A DNA stretch of 64,000 nt from Terriglobia bacterium (GTDB taxonomy: Bacteria; Acidobacteriota; UBA6911). The stretch is from positions 1-64,000 of the forward strand of contig JAIQGI010000008.1 of NCBI GenBank assembly GCA_020072565.1, read 5' to 3'. Below are positions 30,364-40,669 of this stretch, in pieces. The notes under the pieces were generated by a model. That model was not told the DNA's origin, did not search any database, and saw only the letters and a program-made list of their open reading frames with translations. A program made the translations under genes and the position numbers. Each line of letters begins with the position of its first letter. Position 1 is the stretch's first letter.

Positions 30364-32805
30364 ATGAAAGATCTGATCCAGGACTTGCGTTATGGTTGGC
30401 GCCAGCTGTGGCAGAGTCCGGGGCTTACTCTCGCTGCGGTTCTTTGCATCGCTCTGGGCATTGGGGCTAATTCCGCAACCTTCAGCATTGCCAACGCCGT
30501 TCTGTGGCGCAAACCCATGGTGGGCGAGCCCGATCGTCTGGTACGGATTTTTGTAACCTGGTCGAGCGGGCTGAAATACGGCTCCTTTTCATATCCCGAT
30601 TATGTCGACGTGCGCGACAGGAACGACGTCTTCACTGGGCTCGTCGCAAACAGCATCATGCCCTTCCACCTCACTGCAGGCGATCGCAATGAGAGGATCT
30701 GGGGAGCAGTTGTGTCGGGTAACTACTTCTCGGAATTAGGCTTGGAACCAATTCTTGGCCGGGCCTTCCTGCCTGAAGAGGACGGCATGCCGGGCGGCCG
30801 CCCGGTCGCCGTCATCAGTGATGGCCTCTGGCAACGCCGTTTCGGTGCCGACCGGGCTGTAATCGGCAGAACAGTACTGTTGAACGCCCGCCCATACACC
30901 ATTATCGGGGTTGCGCCGAGAGGCTTTTATGGCACAAACACCGGCTTAGGCCAGGAAATTTGGGTACCCATCACGATGGTGGGGCAAATGGGAGACGAAC
31001 GACGGGCCCTGACATCGCGCGGCAATCGCTGGATTCAGTCGATCATTGGCAGGCTGAAGCCCGGGATCACGATCGAGCAGGCAAGCGCTTCTGTGAACAG
31101 TTTGATGGTTCATTTGTCTGAGGAGTACCCCAACACCAACAAGGGTACCAGCGCTCAACTGCTCTGGGACGCTGACGCGAGCCTCCACCCGGAGGTGCGC
31201 GACGGATTCGTCAGGTTCATGCGACTCATGTTCGGGGTGGTTGGGGTCATCCTGCTGCTTTCCTGCACCAATGTTGCCGGCCTTTTGTTGGCCCGTTCCG
31301 CCTCGCGGCGCAAGGAGATCGGGATCCGGATGGCACTTGGGGCCAATCGTCTGCGCCTGATCCGCCAGCTGCTTTCCGAGAGTGTTCTGCTGTCGCTCTT
31401 AGCCGGCGGCGTCGGACTTCTCTTGGGGGTCTGGCTAATCGGGCTGGTTCGATCGTTCAGCCCGCCGAGTGATCTCCCCATCAGATTAGACATTGGCCTC
31501 GACGGGTCAGTGCTCGCCTTTACGTTTGTGGTCACGGTCGTCACGGGAGTCCTGTTCGGATCGACCCCCGCTCTTTCAACCACGAAGACCGATCTTGTCA
31601 CTGTCTTGAAGGAAGGAAGCCCGGTGCAACTGGCCGGGGCTTCTCGATTGCGCCGGATTCTCGTGGCCGGCCAGGTAGCACTCTCGCTTGCCCTTCTGAT
31701 TGCCGCCAGCCTGGTTGTGCGCAGCCTGCAGAATGCGCGCAATCTCGATCCCGGATTCAATCCGGAGCATCAGGTTGTTGCCGCCCTGGATCTGGGGCTG
31801 CAACAATATGACGAAGCCAAAGGCAGGCAGTTCATCCGGTCTCTCAGAGACCGGCTCAGGAGCTTGCCGGGTGTGGAAGCGGTTGGCTTTGCCGATAACC
31901 TGCCTCTGAGCCTCTCCAGTAGTCAGACGGGTGCGCGGCCAGAGGGTTATACTCCACCTCCGAGTGCGAACGACCCCCTCATCGATTATGCCACGGTCGA
32001 CTATGGCTATTTTGCCGCCATGGGGATCCCGGTATTGCGCGGAAGGGGTTTCAGCGAGACCGACAACGTAAGTGCGCCCCCTGTAATCGTGATCAACGAG
32101 ACCTTTGCGCAGCGCTTCTGGCCGGGGCAGGACCCGATCGGGAAGCATGTCAGGACCGGCAGAAAGGACCAGTTAGTCATTGGCGTCGTCAAGAACGGCA
32201 AGTATTTCAGTCTGGGTGAGGAACCCAAAGCCTTTTTATACCTTCCATTGGAGCAGAACCACCGAGCCAGTGTGTTCCTGCACGTGCGGACCGCCGTCGA
32301 TCCCGATGGCTTTTTACAGACAGTTCGCAAAGAAGTACAAAGTCTCGACGACAAGCTGCCACTGGCCGACCTGAAGACGATGCACGCGGCTATGGGCTTT
32401 GCGTTGCTGCCGGCGCGCATGGCTGCCGGGGTCGTCTCCGCCTTCGCCTTTCTCGCCTTGTTTCTTGCGGCTGTCGGCCTTTACGGTGTGATGGCCTACT
32501 CCGTCAGCCAGAGCATTCGCGACATCGGCATCCGTATGGCCTTGGGCGCGCAGGCTGGCGATGTACTCAAACTGATCCTCGGCGGCGGCATGACCCTGAC
32601 TTCGATCGGGTTGGGGATCGGGTTGGTGGTTGGTTTCTTTCTGACGGGCCTGATGAAGGGCCTGCTCTATGGAATCAGTCCCACTGATCCCCTGTCCTAT
32701 GGTAGTGCCATCGCGGTGTTAGCCATGGTCGCTCTTCTGGCTGTTCTCCTGCCGGCGCGCCGGGCCACAAGAGTCGACCCGATGGTCGCTCTGCGGGAGT
32801 ACTGA
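30364..32805 (+). CDS. ADOP-family ABC transporter permease (MacB/FtsX type)
   Basis: An 813-residue inner-membrane protein with the layout of the acidobacterial duplicated orphan permease family: helix 1 at about 20-42 (LAAVLCIALGIGANSATFSI), a MacB-like periplasmic domain (50-280), three helices of the first FtsX unit (KEIGIRMALGANRLRLIRQL), a second MacB-like domain (about 440-670), and a second FtsX unit (IRDIGIRMALGAQAGDVLKL) ending RRATRVDPMVALREY. Starts ATG 30364. No ATPase gene is adjacent, as usual for this family. A broken paralogue lies upstream in the opposite direction. The exported or sensed substrate is unknown. Confidence 0.93.
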   Translation: MKDLIQDLRYGWRQLWQSPGLTLAAVLCIALGIGANSATFSIANAVLWRKPMVGEPDRLVRIFVTWSSGLKYGSFSYPDYVDVRDRNDVFTGLVANSIMPFHLTAGDRNERIWGAVVSGNYFSELGLEPILGRAFLPEEDGMPGGRPVAVISDGLWQRRFGADRAVIGRTVLLNARPYTIIGVAPRGFYGTNTGLGQEIWVPITMVGQMGDERRALTSRGNRWIQSIIGRLKPGITIEQASASVNSLMVHLSEEYPNTNKGTSAQLLWDADASLHPEVRDGFVRFMRLMFGVVGVILLLSCTNVAGLLLARSASRRKEIGIRMALGANRLRLIRQLLSESVLLSLLAGGVGLLLGVWLIGLVRSFSPPSDLPIRLDIGLDGSVLAFTFVVTVVTGVLFGSTPALSTTKTDLVTVLKEGSPVQLAGASRLRRILVAGQVALSLALLIAASLVVRSLQNARNLDPGFNPEHQVVAALDLGLQQYDEAKGRQFIRSLRDRLRSLPGVEAVGFADNLPLSLSSSQTGARPEGYTPPPSANDPLIDYATVDYGYFAAMGIPVLRGRGFSETDNVSAPPVIVINETFAQRFWPGQDPIGKHVRTGRKDQLVIGVVKNGKYFSLGEEPKAFLYLPLEQNHRASVFLHVRTAVDPDGFLQTVRKEVQSLDDKLPLADLKTMHAAMGFALLPARMAAGVVSAFAFLALFLAAVGLYGVMAYSVSQSIRDIGIRMALGAQAGDVLKLILGGGMTLTSIGLGIGLVVGFFLTGLMKGLLYGISPTDPLSYGSAIAVLAMVALLAVLLPARRATRVDPMVALREY

Positions 32806-32946: not shown

Positions 32947-34623
32947 GTGACCAACCGCGCTCGAATCTTGTGTGTCCTTGCTGTGATCCTGCTGCTTCCG
33001 GTTTCGATTGTCCACGCCCAAACCGGCGTCAATCTTCTGGGGGACAGTGCCGCAGCGCGGGTGGACAAGATTTTCGAACGTTACAGCAGGCAGGATTGCC
33101 CCGGGTGTTCCCTCGGAATCGAGCAGGACGGCAAGGTGGTCTACACCCGAGGGTACGGCATGGCCAACCTCGAATACTCGGTGCCGATCACTCCCGCCAC
33201 CATCTTCGAGGCGGGCTCGGTCTCGAAGCAGTTCACGACCGGGGCGATACAGATCCTGGCCCGGCGGGGGAAGCTTTCGCTCGATGATGATATCCGGAAA
33301 TATCTTCCGGAGGTCCCCGATTTCGGGTCGAAGATCACCATACGCCATCTGCTGAGTCACACGAGCGGATTGCGAGACCAGTGGGAGCTGTTCACCGTGA
33401 TGGGGCGGCCGCCGGGCAGCGCCGTTCACACCCTCGACGAAATTCTCGATCTCGTGAGCCGGCAAAAAGAGCTGAACTTCCCTCCAGGCACGCAGTATCT
33501 ATATAGCAACACAGGGTTTGCGCTGCTGGCCTGGATTGTCCGGCGAGCAAGCGGCGTCTCGCTTGCCGAATTCGACTCGAGGGAGATTTTTCAGCCGTTG
33601 GGAATGACAAGCACACAGTGGCGCGACGACCACACGCGCATTGTGAAAGGACGCGCCACAGCTTACAGCACCGGTGCACAGGGGGAGTACCACTCCAACA
33701 TGCCCTTTACCAACGTTTATGGCAACGGCGGGCTGCTCACTACCGCGGGCGACCTGTTGATCTGGAACCGGAACTTCGAAAATCCGCGTGTGATTGGCCG
33801 GGAATCCCTCGACGAGATGCAGATACGCACCAGGCTGAATGACGGAAGCTCGATTATTTATGGCCTCGGCCTCCAAGTTGCCGAGTACAAAGGAGTGCGC
33901 GAAATCAGCCATAGCGGTTCCACCGCCGGCTATCGCGCGTTTCTGGCCCGCTACCCCGATCAGCACCTTTCAATTGCGCTTCTGTGCAACCTGGCCAACG
34001 TCAATGCGGGCGCGCTGGCGCACCAGGTGGCAGAGGTATTCCTGGAGGGCAAGATCAAAGACCGCGCAAAGCCTGTGCGTGTTGAGGTCCCGGCGGAGCA
34101 GATTCAGCGCGCCGCAGGGCTTTACCGCAACTTGCTGACGGATGCGGTGCTGCGCCTGACCGTGCAGGACGGAAAGCTGATGCTCGGGATGGGACAAGGG
34201 AACGAACTGGTGCCGGTCGGTGAGAACCGGTTTGAGGCGTCCGGCGGCGCGCAGTACCTCTTCGTGCCCGGGCAACCGATTCGGCTCGAAGTAGTTACGG
34301 CTGGGGAGCGGCCGGCAATCTACCATGTCGTACCGGCCGTTACCCCTTCGGCGCAGCAGTTGGCCGAATATGCCGGAAACTACTACAGCGAAGAACTTGA
34401 GGTGTCCTATAACTTCAGCGTGCGCGACGGCAGGCTTTTTCTCAAGCGGCGGCTGATGCCTGAAGTGGCGGTCACTGCAACCTATGCCGATGCCTTCAAC
34501 GAAGGCGGGAGGAGCATCCGCTTCACCAGGAATCGGGCGGGAGAGGTCGACGGTCTCAGTCTCTCCAGCGGCCGCGTGCTCCACTTGCGGTTTATCCGGC
34601 GGCCGAATTTGCCGCCGCGATAA
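32947..34623 (+). CDS. Secreted serine hydrolase (beta-lactamase/class C-like family)
   Basis: A 558-residue periplasmic protein, GTG start 32947 with AGGAGGG upstream and a signal peptide (LCVLAVILLLPVSIVHAQ). Catalytic motifs of the penicillin-binding-like fold: S91-V-S-K94 (GSVSKQFT) and Y186-S-N188 (YLYSNTGF); the HSGSTAGY segment supplies the third motif in place of KTG. The last ~190 residues are extra, a beta-rich domain of the lipocalin-like type frequently found after these hydrolases (AAGLYRNLLTDAVLRLTVQD; LAEYAGNYYSEELEV). Roles in the family include D-aminopeptidase, esterase and beta-lactamase-like activity; the substrate is not predictable. It is monocistronic, with its own promoter-like element upstream. 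Confidence 0.92.
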   Translation: MTNRARILCVLAVILLLPVSIVHAQTGVNLLGDSAAARVDKIFERYSRQDCPGCSLGIEQDGKVVYTRGYGMANLEYSVPITPATIFEAGSVSKQFTTGAIQILARRGKLSLDDDIRKYLPEVPDFGSKITIRHLLSHTSGLRDQWELFTVMGRPPGSAVHTLDEILDLVSRQKELNFPPGTQYLYSNTGFALLAWIVRRASGVSLAEFDSREIFQPLGMTSTQWRDDHTRIVKGRATAYSTGAQGEYHSNMPFTNVYGNGGLLTTAGDLLIWNRNFENPRVIGRESLDEMQIRTRLNDGSSIIYGLGLQVAEYKGVREISHSGSTAGYRAFLARYPDQHLSIALLCNLANVNAGALAHQVAEVFLEGKIKDRAKPVRVEVPAEQIQRAAGLYRNLLTDAVLRLTVQDGKLMLGMGQGNELVPVGENRFEASGGAQYLFVPGQPIRLEVVTAGERPAIYHVVPAVTPSAQQLAEYAGNYYSEELEVSYNFSVRDGRLFLKRRLMPEVAVTATYADAFNEGGRSIRFTRNRAGEVDGLSLSSGRVLHLRFIRRPNLPPR

Positions 34624-34793: not shown

Positions 34794-35330
34794 ATGGTGA
34801 AACGCAAACAATCGGTGCAGGAGGGGGAGGCAAAAAGAGGGAGAGACCGCAGAACGGCGCCCCGGCAGCCGCCTTCGGTGATTCCGTCCCTCCAGAGTGT
34901 CGAGTTGACTAACGGCAACGCGGTGAACCTGGTCAATATTTCCCGCGGCGGCGCACTCGTTGAAACGGAAGCACGCATGATACCAGGAGTATCGATCTGC
35001 ATCCGGTTGGTTGCGGCCGATGCTGTTTTCATGCTTCGAGGCAGGGTCCTGCGGTCGCGCGCCCTGTCGTTGCGAGGGTCCACCATCCTCTATGAGTCTG
35101 CCATCGCGTTTAATGAGGAATTGCCGTTACTTGCGGGTGAATTTGACGAGCCCGCGGTGGAGAAGGAGCCCGCGGCTGCATTTCCTGCGGTGGAAGAAGC
35201 CGCTGCGAGCCAACCAGACAGTCAGCCAGGGACGGCTGTGGAAGAACGGCCGATCATGTTCACGCTGACCGTTCCTATCCCGCCGACGGGTCCCGACCTT
35301 CGTCAAATATTTGGGCTCAACAAGTGGTGA
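34794..35330 (+). CDS. PilZ-domain protein
   Basis: A 178-residue cytosolic protein. Residues about 19-110 form a PilZ domain: RDRRTAPRQPP (the RxxxR c-di-GMP arm as RRTAPR) and NLVNISRGGALVETEA (the D/NxSxxG motif as NISRGG). The tail (110-178) is acidic and Ala/Pro/Glu-rich, ending IPPTGPDLRQIFGLNKW. Start ATG 34794. It precedes the giant receiver/coiled-coil protein by 160 bp in the same direction, so the two may be co-regulated and c-di-GMP could link to that scaffold. Binding of c-di-GMP is expected from family knowledge. Confidence 0.85.
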   Translation: MVKRKQSVQEGEAKRGRDRRTAPRQPPSVIPSLQSVELTNGNAVNLVNISRGGALVETEARMIPGVSICIRLVAADAVFMLRGRVLRSRALSLRGSTILYESAIAFNEELPLLAGEFDEPAVEKEPAAAFPAVEEAAASQPDSQPGTAVEERPIMFTLTVPIPPTGPDLRQIFGLNKW

Positions 35331-35491
35331 CTGGGAATCGTCCTTGAGGTGGACCAATTTGGGAGATGCCGCGAGTTTGCGCGCGCTTTCCGCTGCTGAG
35401 CCTTCGACCCGTGTCAATCCACAGTGTTGGCATGATGGACACATGCGGTATGATGTGATGTATCAGATGTATGCCTGATCGTGCCTGAGTC

Positions 35492-38400
35492 ATGACCATG
35501 AATGTCTTATACGTGACAGGATATCTCAGGGACGCAGATTTCCTCGAGCGCGAGCTTCGCAAGGTCGCGCCACAGATCCGTATCGAGGTGTCTCCCGGGG
35601 ACGACGACGCTCTCGCGCGTCTAGCCACACCTGGCCGCTTTGACGTTGTCCTGATCGATCCTGCTCACCCCGGCAGCGAGAGCTTGAGCATCATCCCCCG
35701 CCTCCGCGAGCGGGAACTGCCTCTTCCTGTCGTGGTGATGGTCAGTGCCGCTGATGAGGATACCCCTCTCCATGTGCTGGAAGCAGGGGCGGACGATTAC
35801 ATCGTCAAACGGCCTCAGTTCATCAAGAGCCTGCCGTCGCTGTTGCAGCGCGCCGTCGAACGCCGCCGCACGGAAGCGAAGAGGCGCGTTCAACCGCTCA
35901 AAGTGCTATATGCGGGCAACGTGGAGATCGTGCGCCGCCACCTCTCCGGCACTTCCTTCATTGAGCTCGAGGGGGCTACTTTCAACCCGGACGGATCCTG
36001 CTGCCTGCCTTCCGATACGCCCGGCAATTTTCCCTATGATGCCGTGGTGCTGGACGATTCGGCTCCCGGGCTACGCATGATGCACGCTCTCAAGGAGACC
36101 GTCGCCGTCGCTCCCGATACTCCGGTCATCCTCCTGATTGAACCCGGCTCCGAGAATGCTGCCGTGCAGGCGATCAAACTGGGCGCGGATGATTACATAG
36201 TCAAGAGCGGCGAATACCTGCAACGCCTGGTCCCCAGTCTGGAGAACTCCATCCGCGAGCGCGACCTCTTGCGCGAAAAGTCCGTGCTGAGCTCGACGGA
36301 AGCGCGCCTGCGGCTTCTTATCGAGACGATCCCTGCCTGCGTTACCCTCCTGACGTGCGATGGGATCTTCCAGGCCGTCAACTGGATGGGGCTTTCGCAC
36401 CTGGGCGCGACGCGTGTCGACCAGATTGTCGGCAAGAATCTGTTCACCTTGGTAGGGCCCAAGCATGAGGACCAGCTCCGCGCCTTTATCGGCCATGTCT
36501 GTGCAGGTAAGAGCGGCTCCATAGAGTTTGAGTGGGACGGGCTCGATGGCATCGCGCGCAGGCTCGAGCTCCGAGGGGTTCCTTTCCGCCGGGAATCCCA
36601 GACTGCGGTCCTGGGCGTCATTCACAACCTGACTCAAGATGAAGCCAAACGGTCGGGAACCGAGCGTCGAGGGGGGGAGCAGGGCGAGCCGACTTTGACA
36701 GATACGCGGTTCGTGGCGGCGGCCGGATCTGCGGAGTCGGAAGTCCCGCAGGCGCCGTCAGTGCAGCCACCGCGCGCTGCGCAAGAAAGCCGGGTGGGGC
36801 GCGGCCGGGAACACCCGTTCCCGCAGGAGCTGGAAGCACAGCGTGCCGCTTTGGAAGCAGCTCTCCGCATCGCTGAGGCCAATTGCGCCAGGCTTGAAGA
36901 GGATCTGCGCAGCAAACAACTGCAGTGGGAATCAGAGCGAACAAAGTACGAAGGGGAACGCTCCGCACTCCTGGATGCGGCACGGGCAGCGGAAAGTGAG
37001 CGCCATAGCGGACAGGCGGAATGGCATTCGGCGCGCCAGGAAATGGACTGGCAGCGAATCGCCCTGGAAGAGGCCTTGCGGGCAGCAGAAGCCGGACAGT
37101 CGCAGTTGGAGGAGGCGAATCGGAACGAGCGAACGCAATGGGAGAAGGTCCGGTGGGACCTGGAACGAAAACTCGGTGAGGCTGAGGAGCACGGAGCCGC
37201 GCTCGGCGATACGATTCGTGCACTCGAAGAACGCCAGGCCGGACTCGAAAAACAGCGCCTGAGCGAGCGTGCCGAGTTGGACAATGCGCGCCTCGAGCTG
37301 GAGCGGCACCGCGTGGCAGCGGAAGGCAAGCGTGCAGAGGCGGAAGGCCTCTCTGCCTCGCTTGCAAAGTCGCTGCATGAAACGGAGACGCGTCTCGCCG
37401 AATGTGAGAATCAGCGCCGGGCCGAACAGGCGGAATGGGAGAAGAACCGTCAGGAGCTGGAGCAGCAGCGCCGCGAGGCTGAAGAGCGAACAACCCCCCT
37501 CGAGGAGACGGTTCGCAGACTCGAAGAGCGGCATCGCATCGAGGGCGCCGAGTGGGACAATGCGCGCCTCGACCTGGAGCGCCGCCGCGAGGAAGCGGAG
37601 CGCCTGTATGCTTCGGCGGCAGAGTCGCTGCGCGCACTGGAGATGCGCCACGTCGAGTTCGAGAATCAACGCCGGGCCGAACAGACGAAATGGGAAAAGT
37701 CCCATCAGGAACTGGAGCAGCAGCTCCGTGAGGCTGACGAGCGAAGAGCTTCCCTCGAGGAGACTATTCGCCGACTCGAAGAGCAGCATCGCGTCGAGCG
37801 CGCCGACTGGGACAACGTGCGCCTTGATTTGGAGCAGCGCCTCGAACAGGCGGAAGGCAGATGCGTGGAGGCAGAAGGCCTGTGTGCCTCGCTGAAGGAA
37901 ACACTGCACACACTGGAGATGCGCCTCGCCGAGTTTGAGAATCAAGACCGGGCCGGGGCGGCGGAGTGGGAGAAGACCCGTCAGCAGCTGGAGCAGCAGT
38001 GCCGTGAGGCAGATGCGCGGAGAGCTTCCCTCGAAGAGACTGTTCGCGGACTCGAAGAGCGGCATCGAGCTGAGCAGGCCGAGTGGGACAATGTGCGCCT
38101 CGACCTGGAGCGCCGCCGTGCGGAGGCGGAGGGCCTGTATGCTTCGGTGGCCGAGTCGCTGCGCGCACTTGAGAAAAGGCACGCTGAGTTCGAGGATCAA
38201 GGCCGGGCCGGGCAGGCGGAAAGGGAGAAGATCATCCAGGAGCTGGAGCAGCAGCGCCGCGAGGCTGAAGAGCGTCGCGCTTCGCTCGAAGAGACTATTC
38301 GCGGACTCGAAGAGCAGCATCGCGCCGAGCATGCCGCGTGGGACCATGCGCGCGTCGAGCTGGAGCAGCAACGCGAGCAGACGGAGGGCAGGTGTGCGGA

Positions 38401-40669
38401 TGCGGAAGGCACCTCTGCCTTGCTGGCAGGGTCGCTGCACGCACTGGAAATGCGTCACACCACGTTCGAAAATCAGCGCAGGGTCGAGCAGGCAGAATGG
38501 GAGAAGGCCCGCCGGGAGCTGGAGCAGCAGCGCCGTGAAGCCGAAGAGCGACGCGCCTCGCTTGAAGAGACGATCCGCGGACTCGAAGAGCAGCATCGCG
38601 TCGAGCATGCCGCGTGGGACAATGCGCGCGTCGAGCTGGAGCGGCAACGCGAGCAGACGCAGAGCAAGTGTGCGGAGGCGGAAGGCGTATCTGCCGCGCT
38701 GGCAGAATCGCTGCACGCACTGGAAACGCGCCTCACCGACTTCGAAAATCAGCGCGGGCTTGAGCAGGCAGAATGGGAGAAGACCCGTCAGGAACTGGGG
38801 CAGCAGTGCCGTGATGCGGAAGAACGACGGCGTTCCCTTGAGGAGGTCATTCGCGGACTCGAAGCTCGTCAGGTCGCGCAGGCGGACGGGGACGAAACAC
38901 GGCGGGATTTGGAACGAAAACTCCGGGAGGCTGAGGAACGCGCGGCTGCGCTCGGGAATACCATTCGTGGACTCGAAGAACGCCAGACCGGACTCGAAGA
39001 ACGTCGCCGGATTGAGCGAGCCGAATGGGAGAAAACACGTGTCGAACTGGAGCGATGCCGCGAGGAAGCCGAAGGCAAGCGTGCGGAGGCTGAAGGCCTG
39101 TGTGCTTCGCTGGCAGAATCGCTGTACGCGCTGGAGATGCGCCACGCCGAGTTCGAGAATCAGGGCCGGACCGGCCAGGCGGAATGGGAACAGACCCGTC
39201 AGGAGCTGGAGCAGCAGCGTCAGAGGCAGCAATCCAGAGTTGTGGAGCTCGAAGATGCTCTCGCCGCCGCGGAAGAGCGTGCCCGCCTTCTAAAGGAAGA
39301 GCACAAGGTCGTACAAGCCGACTGGGGGGTGACGCGCCAGGACCTGGAACGGCGCCTGGCATCGCTCGAGGAGGTGCTGCATAGACTTCAGGCACGGCAC
39401 GGCGAGATTCTGGCACAGGCGCAGGTCGAGCGGGCAGGCTGGGAGGCGGCGCGACAGGAGTTGGTGCGCCGGCACGAAGCAGCAGAGACAACACGAGCCG
39501 CCTTGGCAAAGGACCTTCATGCAGTGCAGGCACGCCTGGCGGAACTCGAGGATCTCAAACATGTCGAAACGTCAGCCTGGGACAAAGAGCGCCAGGAACT
39601 GAAGCGGCAGCAACGCGAGATTGAGACGAAGATCGTGATGTTGGAGAAAGCACTGGCTGTGTCGGAAGAAAGCCTGACCCGATTTCTCGCGGAGCAGCAG
39701 TCGGAACGGGCCGATCGCGCGAAGTTGCAGGAGGAACTGGAGCATCAGCGTGCCGCGCGGGTGGCCATGGAAGATACGCTGCGCGCCTCCGAAGCCCGGC
39801 AGATTGGGCTTCTGGACGAGCAGCGCGCGGAACAGGCGGAGTGGCAGACCATGCGCGAAGAACTGGATCGCCAGAGGACCGCACGGCTGGCGCTCGAAGA
39901 CGCACTCCGGGCCGCGGAAGCACGGCTGGCCAGGCTGGCGGAGGAACAACAGCCCGGGCGGGCGGAAATTGAGGCGTTGCGCCAGGAGCTCGAGGGGCAA
40001 CGTGCAGCACGCCTGGCGCTCGAACGCGCGCTTCGGGCTGCGGAAGCCCGGCAACGGACGGAGCCGGTCACAGATCTAGCCACCGCGGCGGCACAGACCC
40101 TCTCCGAACTGGTGCAGCCTGTAACCGACTGCGGCAAGATGCTCATGGAATGCCTGGACCAGAACGACCCGCGCCGCATGCGCGCCCTGCGCCTTGTGGA
40201 GATCGCAAACCAGGCGGGCAAACTCGCACGCCGCTTGCTGAATCTCGGCTCCCCGCAGGAGGCGCTCGACCTCAACCTGGCGGTGACACAGATGACAGGG
40301 ACGTTACGCCGCCAGGCCGGCGAAAGTGTTGAGCTGCTCACGATCCTGTCTCCACGTCTGCCGCGTATCCTCGCCCCCAGGGCTCTGGTCGAGCAGCTGC
40401 TCATTGGGATGGTGAAGCAGGCGCGCGATTCGTTGCCGTTAGGGGGCACGGTCATGGTGGAAACCGCACTCTCCGCTTCTGACGCGGCTCCCGGAACCGG
40501 ACTCCTTATTCTGTTGGCCGTTACAGCTTCGGGAAGCAGCGTTCAACCTCTTGCGGAAACTTCGGCGTTGGAGCCGCTGGTCGCCGCATGCGGAGGTAAG
40601 CTGAGTACCGCCGGCGACTCCGAGACCAGCGCCTCCATCGAGATTTCTCTGCCATCGGAACCTAAATAA
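35492..40669 (+). CDS. Giant scaffold: two receiver domains, PAS, ~1080-residue coiled coil, degenerate histidine-kinase end
   Basis: A 1725-residue protein. Order: receiver 1 (about 4-125; VVLIDPAHPG, DDYIVK), receiver 2 (about 133-265; AVVLDDSAPG, DDYIVKSG), PAS (about 275-395), a continuous Glu/Arg/Ala-rich coiled coil (about 440-1520), then a C-terminal region like the DHp/HATPase of hybrid kinases (1525-1725). The kinase part appears dead: no phosphorylatable His (AAQTLSELVQ instead of AHDFNNLL), the N-box Asn is changed (MVKQARDSLPLGG), and the DxGxG box is absent. Both receivers lack the usual N-terminal acidic pair. Residues 642-1224 are tandem repeats of 85 or 92 residues. No signal or membrane segment, so cytosolic. 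A filament- or polarity-type scaffold is my inference. Start M1 at 35492 or M3 at 35498. Confidence 0.88.
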   Translation: MTMNVLYVTGYLRDADFLERELRKVAPQIRIEVSPGDDDALARLATPGRFDVVLIDPAHPGSESLSIIPRLRERELPLPVVVMVSAADEDTPLHVLEAGADDYIVKRPQFIKSLPSLLQRAVERRRTEAKRRVQPLKVLYAGNVEIVRRHLSGTSFIELEGATFNPDGSCCLPSDTPGNFPYDAVVLDDSAPGLRMMHALKETVAVAPDTPVILLIEPGSENAAVQAIKLGADDYIVKSGEYLQRLVPSLENSIRERDLLREKSVLSSTEARLRLLIETIPACVTLLTCDGIFQAVNWMGLSHLGATRVDQIVGKNLFTLVGPKHEDQLRAFIGHVCAGKSGSIEFEWDGLDGIARRLELRGVPFRRESQTAVLGVIHNLTQDEAKRSGTERRGGEQGEPTLTDTRFVAAAGSAESEVPQAPSVQPPRAAQESRVGRGREHPFPQELEAQRAALEAALRIAEANCARLEEDLRSKQLQWESERTKYEGERSALLDAARAAESERHSGQAEWHSARQEMDWQRIALEEALRAAEAGQSQLEEANRNERTQWEKVRWDLERKLGEAEEHGAALGDTIRALEERQAGLEKQRLSERAELDNARLELERHRVAAEGKRAEAEGLSASLAKSLHETETRLAECENQRRAEQAEWEKNRQELEQQRREAEERTTPLEETVRRLEERHRIEGAEWDNARLDLERRREEAERLYASAAESLRALEMRHVEFENQRRAEQTKWEKSHQELEQQLREADERRASLEETIRRLEEQHRVERADWDNVRLDLEQRLEQAEGRCVEAEGLCASLKETLHTLEMRLAEFENQDRAGAAEWEKTRQQLEQQCREADARRASLEETVRGLEERHRAEQAEWDNVRLDLERRRAEAEGLYASVAESLRALEKRHAEFEDQGRAGQAEREKIIQELEQQRREAEERRASLEETIRGLEEQHRAEHAAWDHARVELEQQREQTEGRCADAEGTSALLAGSLHALEMRHTTFENQRRVEQAEWEKARRELEQQRREAEERRASLEETIRGLEEQHRVEHAAWDNARVELERQREQTQSKCAEAEGVSAALAESLHALETRLTDFENQRGLEQAEWEKTRQELGQQCRDAEERRRSLEEVIRGLEARQVAQADGDETRRDLERKLREAEERAAALGNTIRGLEERQTGLEERRRIERAEWEKTRVELERCREEAEGKRAEAEGLCASLAESLYALEMRHAEFENQGRTGQAEWEQTRQELEQQRQRQQSRVVELEDALAAAEERARLLKEEHKVVQADWGVTRQDLERRLASLEEVLHRLQARHGEILAQAQVERAGWEAARQELVRRHEAAETTRAALAKDLHAVQARLAELEDLKHVETSAWDKERQELKRQQREIETKIVMLEKALAVSEESLTRFLAEQQSERADRAKLQEELEHQRAARVAMEDTLRASEARQIGLLDEQRAEQAEWQTMREELDRQRTARLALEDALRAAEARLARLAEEQQPGRAEIEALRQELEGQRAARLALERALRAAEARQRTEPVTDLATAAAQTLSELVQPVTDCGKMLMECLDQNDPRRMRALRLVEIANQAGKLARRLLNLGSPQEALDLNLAVTQMTGTLRRQAGESVELLTILSPRLPRILAPRALVEQLLIGMVKQARDSLPLGGTVMVETALSASDAAPGTGLLILLAVTASGSSVQPLAETSALEPLVAACGGKLSTAGDSETSASIEISLPSEPK
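37415..39163 (+). repeat. Tandem coding repeats inside the giant coiled-coil gene
   Basis: Consecutive units begin with a motif like RRAEQAEWEK and end with ALEMRHAEFENQ. The first five units are 85, 92, 85, 92 and 92 residues long (255 or 276 bp); long and short forms differ by exactly seven residues, one heptad, next to EAEG. The last unit is enlarged by insertion of a different segment. The repeats arose by in-frame duplication and keep the coiled-coil phase. They also create long open frames on the other strand, which are not genes. Confidence 0.85.

Follow-up and report, generated by a model that had tools for sequence, protein, structure and literature searches.

In Myxococcus xanthus, FrzS and AglZ carry an N-terminal receiver without phosphorylation residues, followed by a coiled coil, in keeping with the logic of a non-catalytic scaffold, and the FrzS receiver is described as atypical (PMC1974792; PMC11580455). 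Domains that keep the receiver fold without key active-site residues have been defined as pseudo-receivers, about 80% of which have a non-acidic residue in place of the second acidic one (PMC12632262). In the FimX-PilZ-PilB system of Xanthomonas and Pseudomonas (PMC11580455), a PilZ protein goes together with a larger pseudo-receiver-bearing protein, and Pseudomonas FimX is described as carrying a pseudo-receiver (PMC1974792). On the kinase side, DivL of Caulobacter has a CckA-related DHp-CA fold that is catalytically dead, and the kinase-like region of RetS from Pseudomonas acts on another kinase by direct contact. DivL also contains a PAS domain, and RetS, a membrane hybrid, carries a sensor of its own. 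Then, could such parts be joined in one protein with a PilZ partner? Our literature search found no paper that brings PilZ together with a coiled coil and a histidine kinase in Acidobacteria.

Here, we analysed a window of DNA, that is, the whole stretch of 64,000 nucleotides from a Terriglobia bacterium, in which the gene of a giant scaffold protein directly follows a PilZ gene. By analogy, the scaffold would resemble FrzS/AglZ in plan, FimX-PilZ in pairing, and DivL and RetS in the kinase fold used as a regulator. It has the atypical N-terminal receiver and long coil of the FrzS/AglZ-type architecture, and the likeness drawn here is one of architecture. However, FrzS and AglZ have one receiver and the scaffold has two, the FrzS coil counts 258 residues against ~1080 here, and no PAS domain, kinase end or PilZ partner gene is mentioned for FrzS/AglZ in the descriptions compared (PMC1974792; PMC11580455). 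FimX is a c-di-GMP-binding protein of the GGDEF/EAL type, whereas here the PilZ protein keeps the c-di-GMP motifs and the scaffold is without GGDEF or EAL. Unlike the scaffold, DivL, with which it shares the PAS domain, has neither receivers nor a giant coil, and in DivL only the His is replaced whereas the scaffold has its ATP lid deleted; RetS has neither coil nor PilZ partner, and the scaffold is not such a membrane hybrid. The features of the locus, in window coordinates, are listed below.

34794..35330, + strand: PilZ-domain partner gene, 178 aa, with RxxxR and (D/N)xSxxG c-di-GMP motifs kept (Pfam PilZ E 0.0047)
35250..35327, + strand: C-terminal tail of the PilZ protein (...GLNKW), a candidate docking peptide with the C-terminal -N-[DKNS]-W pattern
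35427..35454, + strand: weak sigma-70-like site between the PilZ and scaffold genes (1 found, 0.8 expected)
35498..40669, + strand: gene of the giant scaffold, 1723 aa if counted from its probable start (first-ATG frame from 35492)
35501..35884, + strand: pseudo-receiver 1 (Pfam, alignment, model), acidic pair replaced by T9/G10, D56 and K106 kept
35897..36277, + strand: pseudo-receiver 2 (Pfam, alignment, model), G142/N143 at the acidic pair, D188 and K238 kept, E217 for Thr/Ser
36305..36637, + strand: PAS domain (Pfam and AlphaFold2 model)
36806..40057, + strand: continuous coiled coil, residues ~439-1522 (core path, 46/92-residue periodicity, Trp spacing)
37625..38864, + strand: 276-bp (92-codon) tandem repeat array within the coil, 4.6 copies (TRF)
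40061..40246, + strand: DHp-like helical hairpin without phospho-His (Q1535; alignment, model, Foldseek)
40259..40654, + strand: CA-like domain with ATP lid and G2 box deleted (alignment, model, Foldseek, sequence search)

The scaffold frame at 35492-40669 (+) runs through 1725 codons without interruption. Since homologues begin at an aligned M-N-[V/I/L], translation probably starts at the second ATG, 35498. The single sigma-70-like site ahead of it is close to the chance number and gives no evidence of function. On the opposite strand, a 766-aa open frame lies over the coil (36932-39232, −); this frame, like the marked GC and AT skews at 37-40 kb, is probably a by-product of the E/A/R/L-rich coil codons. 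Among the neighbours, the gene at 30364-32805 encodes a permease of the ADOP family, well above the cut-off, and such permeases are typical of Acidobacteriota. The gene at 32947-34623 (+) encodes a serine hydrolase related to D-aminopeptidases and class C beta-lactamases, under every family cut-off shown.

The domain search suggested by the initial annotation returns two Response_reg stretches at the N-terminus and a PAS domain at residues 272-378 with Pfam, and CckA with NCBIfam at the C-terminal end, where Pfam gives no match. In the AlphaFold2 model of residues 3-389 (pLDDT 83.5), both receivers are complete (beta-alpha)5 folds followed by a PAS fold, in agreement with the single PAS domain claimed at the outset. 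The alignment bears out that the metal-binding acidic pair is gone from both receivers, replaced by T9/G10 in receiver 1 and G142/N143 in receiver 2. What had been overlooked is that the phospho-Asp (D56 and D188) and the Lys (K106 and K238) are retained in receivers 1 and 2, respectively; some phosphate chemistry is therefore conceivable. At the Thr/Ser position, receiver 1 has S85 and receiver 2 has E217; D188 is invariant across 8 aligned sequences. Both domains thus keep the receiver fold without key active-site residues, and they fit the published concept of the pseudo-receiver. In two homologues (L052 and L051, in genomes G006 and G007), much of one or both receivers has been lost while the PAS domain, the coil and the PilZ neighbour are kept, and consequently the receivers appear dispensable.

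The very long coil described initially is confirmed by a core path through residues 439-1522 (own script), with z = 14.2 against shuffled sequences, a mean core step of 3.534 and 20 four-residue stutters; skips are absent. If its 1084 residues were fully extended, the rod would measure ~160 nm by simple arithmetic (0.1485 nm per residue). The coil sequence has periodicities of 46 and 92 residues, seen in the DNA as the 276-bp array, and most close Trp anchors are spaced by 39, 46 or 53 residues, all of them 7n+4. Elsewhere, the repeat units count 32 residues (G008, G009), 46/92 (G001, G013) or 74 (G010). Since 32, 46 and 74 all equal 7n+4, duplications can preserve the register of the coil. 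Coil length ranges from ~170 to ~1080 residues across homologues, and the short-coil and coil-free versions in G326 indicate that it has been altered lineage by lineage.

Sequence searches relate the C-terminal end to CckA, ZraS, KinB and DivL, the profile query having been built from pseudokinase ends only. Its AlphaFold2 model consists of a DHp hairpin and a CA domain, so that the kinase fold is kept, and the Foldseek matches include structures of ZraS, RetS, CckA, NtrB and DivL. The hallmarks of an active kinase are lost, as had been noticed from the sequence: Q1535 stands in place of the phospho-accepting His (Q, K, T, R or P among homologues in f1, the family of the window, and in G050), G1639/Q1643 replace the N-box Asn pair, and DxGxG has become A-S-G-S-S (1679-1683). 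The alignment, which might have uncovered intact motifs in the window protein, reveals none there; the ATP lid and the G2 box are missing as well, both here and in all 13 aligned homologous ends. This end is therefore a pseudo-histidine kinase, its fold kept and its catalytic residues gone. An N-box Asn is still present in G006, G008 and G009, perhaps as a relic. In an unrooted tree, 13 pseudokinase ends lie on one side of a branch (support 100/98) and 24 motif-keeping kinases on the other, a split consistent with the catalytic parts having been lost once. A second PAS domain precedes the pseudokinase in genus g3 and in G050; it is absent from the window protein and from G001, where the coil thus joins the DHp helix directly. 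Judged from these alignments, the protein lacks the residues for catalysis and for normal phospho-switching, as first proposed.

The PilZ gene noted upstream of the scaffold has turned out to be a conserved partner, lying directly upstream on the same strand in 12/12 homologous loci with a gap of 15-179 bp. All ten of the scaffold-linked PilZ proteins compared keep the motif columns of RxxxR and (D/N)xSxxG. The window PilZ scores 17.7 bits against a Pfam gathering threshold of 22.5; of eight proteins scanned, five pass and three fall below. Beyond a variable linker, the protein ends in -N-[D/K/N/S]-W in 12/12 scaffold-linked PilZ proteins, and such a tail occurs in 0/24 other PilZ proteins from the carriers G000, G008, G013 and G087. 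This tail is a new observation of the present analysis. From these sequence patterns, the PilZ partner probably binds c-di-GMP, and its N-x-W tail is the foremost candidate docking peptide. GGDEF genes occur in 6/6 carrier genomes tested.

Some further PilZ genes deserve mention. A second PilZ protein of G007 (contig C112; L119:4583-5098, +) ends in LNDW with no scaffold adjoining, and may dock in trans on the same scaffold. In G014, whose genome is 76% complete, a PilZ partner domain (L113:3187-3516, +; 128-aa frame) was found and no scaffold. The window's genome also has a 311-codon frame (L054, G000:C20:71131-71955) that fuses an N-terminal related receiver to a PilZ domain. When the PilZ alignment was run against the PDB, the hits, mostly polyubiquitin, were essentially at chance level, and they were set aside.

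Homologues were searched for in the window's family and in 396 genomes of the phylum. As for the phylogenetic spread raised by the initial annotation, the architecture occurs in 9/15 f1 genomes and in G050 (f24), G087 (f40) and G326 (f61), that is, in 12 genomes (11 besides the window's own) of four families of the phylum. A scan of named genomes of close relatives with the scaffold N-terminus yielded nothing beyond a weak match in Desulforhopalus. In most drafts, contig ends cut the gene within the coil and so probably hide it in annotations; the N- and C-terminal halves of such homologues were joined by inference only. Apart from PilZ, nothing is common to the neighbourhoods compared across genera, save synteny among close relatives, and the idea of a larger conserved operon was dropped; the genes around the pair do not point to any pathway. 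In G326, three PilZ and two pseudokinase genes stand in tandem (L115:1666-9139, −), including a coil-free pseudokinase-PilZ pair whose PilZ protein ends in LAEW. The coil-free gene has a single receiver-like domain, and it is possibly an ancestral or a reduced form.

Between G008 and G009 of genus g3, dN/dS is 0.06 for the PAS domain, 0.37-0.53 for the receivers and 0.41 for the coil. For the pseudokinase in this genus it is 0.5-0.6 (0.60 for G008 vs G009), and the pseudokinase is weakly constrained there. Between the window and G001, it is ~0.21 at the N-terminal and ~0.22 at the C-terminal end, with synonymous sites nearly saturated. PilZ values are not counted here; for the PilZ genes of the window and G001, synonymous sites were saturated. 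Values below 1 in every part tested, together with the kept DHp-CA fold, argue against decay.

Which reading, then, fits the locus best? The pseudokinase end could pair with a real kinase of the CckA/NtrB type and toggle it, as in DivL or RetS, the coil and receivers only positioning it. This is a serious possibility, though short of an even chance: the end is nearest to CckA, ZraS and KinB in sequence and also matches DivL, structures of RetS, CckA and DivL are among its Foldseek matches, and intact members of this kinase family occur several times in the window's own genome. Moreover, CckA is under the control of the inactive kinase DivL, and RetS forms heterodimers with GacS and so inhibits it (PMC12189002). 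However, no conserved kinase gene is found in the neighbourhoods compared, the DHp sequence is poorly conserved, and such a role would not need a coil of ~1000 residues. Alternatively, the protein could be a c-di-GMP-tuned landmark, polar or focal, that serves type IV pili or gliding in the manner of FrzS/AglZ, whose layout of an N-terminal pseudo-receiver and a long coil it shares. At the pole, FrzS recruits SgmX, and the polar targeting of FrzS and FimX involves receiver-like domains (PMC1974792; PMC11580455). Every carrier tested has PilB-type genes. PilB is, however, equally present in relatives without the PilZ-scaffold pair, so that its presence or absence does not discriminate, and the polar landmark first suggested finds no backing there. 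As the neighbours tested in the window include no recognisable pilus or gliding gene, and FrzS as described lacks a PAS domain and a kinase end, we consider a landmark rather unlikely.

Could the protein simply be a decaying kinase without function, drifting while its repeats expand? The missing catalytic residues, repeats that grow and shrink, a pseudokinase dN/dS of up to 0.6 and the receiver parts lost in some homologues point that way. Yet the frames are open in all homologues over four families, the fold is retained, the coil register is kept, and the PilZ partner adjoins in 12/12 loci with its fixed tail; a pseudogene was rejected on dN/dS and on the grouping of the pseudokinase ends in the tree, and decay is very improbable. 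An error of assembly or reading frame in repetitive DNA, suggested by the contig breaks inside the coil in most relatives, can practically be dismissed. The window coil has no exact repeat of at least 40 bp and that of G003 no repeated 20-mer, which argues against repeat collapse, and three genes on single contigs have long coils (1725, 1648 and 1317 codons). The initial annotation had reasoned that a frameshift-free homologue with a short linker would expose the long coil as such an error. A homologue of this kind exists in G326 (906 aa, coil ~170 residues), yet assemblies made independently also have long coils, and its short coil is therefore a lineage-specific change of length and not a sign of an artefact.

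We consider it probable, on balance, that the PilZ protein and the giant protein form one non-catalytic signalling unit, a scaffold paired with a predicted c-di-GMP receptor; a scaffold, as originally proposed, is the best reading of a protein whose catalytic residues are absent and whose coil is very long. The small PilZ protein would bind c-di-GMP and use its N-x-W tail to dock on its giant partner, which probably forms a parallel coiled-coil dimer as long as ~160 nm, with two pseudo-receivers and the PAS domain displayed at one end and the pseudokinase DHp-CA module at the opposite end. The dead domains may offer surfaces to which partners bind (real kinases, response regulators or a surface machine, for instance), and the rod may fix the distance or position of these two dead two-component modules. 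Control by c-di-GMP via the PilZ partner would be the most economical reading; as for the earlier suggestion that the protein reads two signals, c-di-GMP through PilZ would be a likelier input than receiver phosphorylation. A bolder version, which we regard as a long shot, is a c-di-GMP-gated molecular ruler built wholly of dead two-component parts, in which c-di-GMP-bound PilZ would plug its tail into a scaffold pocket, possibly the lidless, ATP-free CA cleft, and thereby couple or uncouple partners up to 160 nm apart, with lineages tuning the rod length by duplicating register-keeping coil units.

Such genes are easily missed in draft genomes, being cut at contig ends. With this locus, the poorly understood pseudo-receivers and pseudokinases gain a partner gene that is conserved and whose product has a likely ligand, the three-residue tail of the PilZ protein is directly open to mutation, and the natural series of rods, from ~170 to 1080 residues, lets the purpose of coil length be tested.
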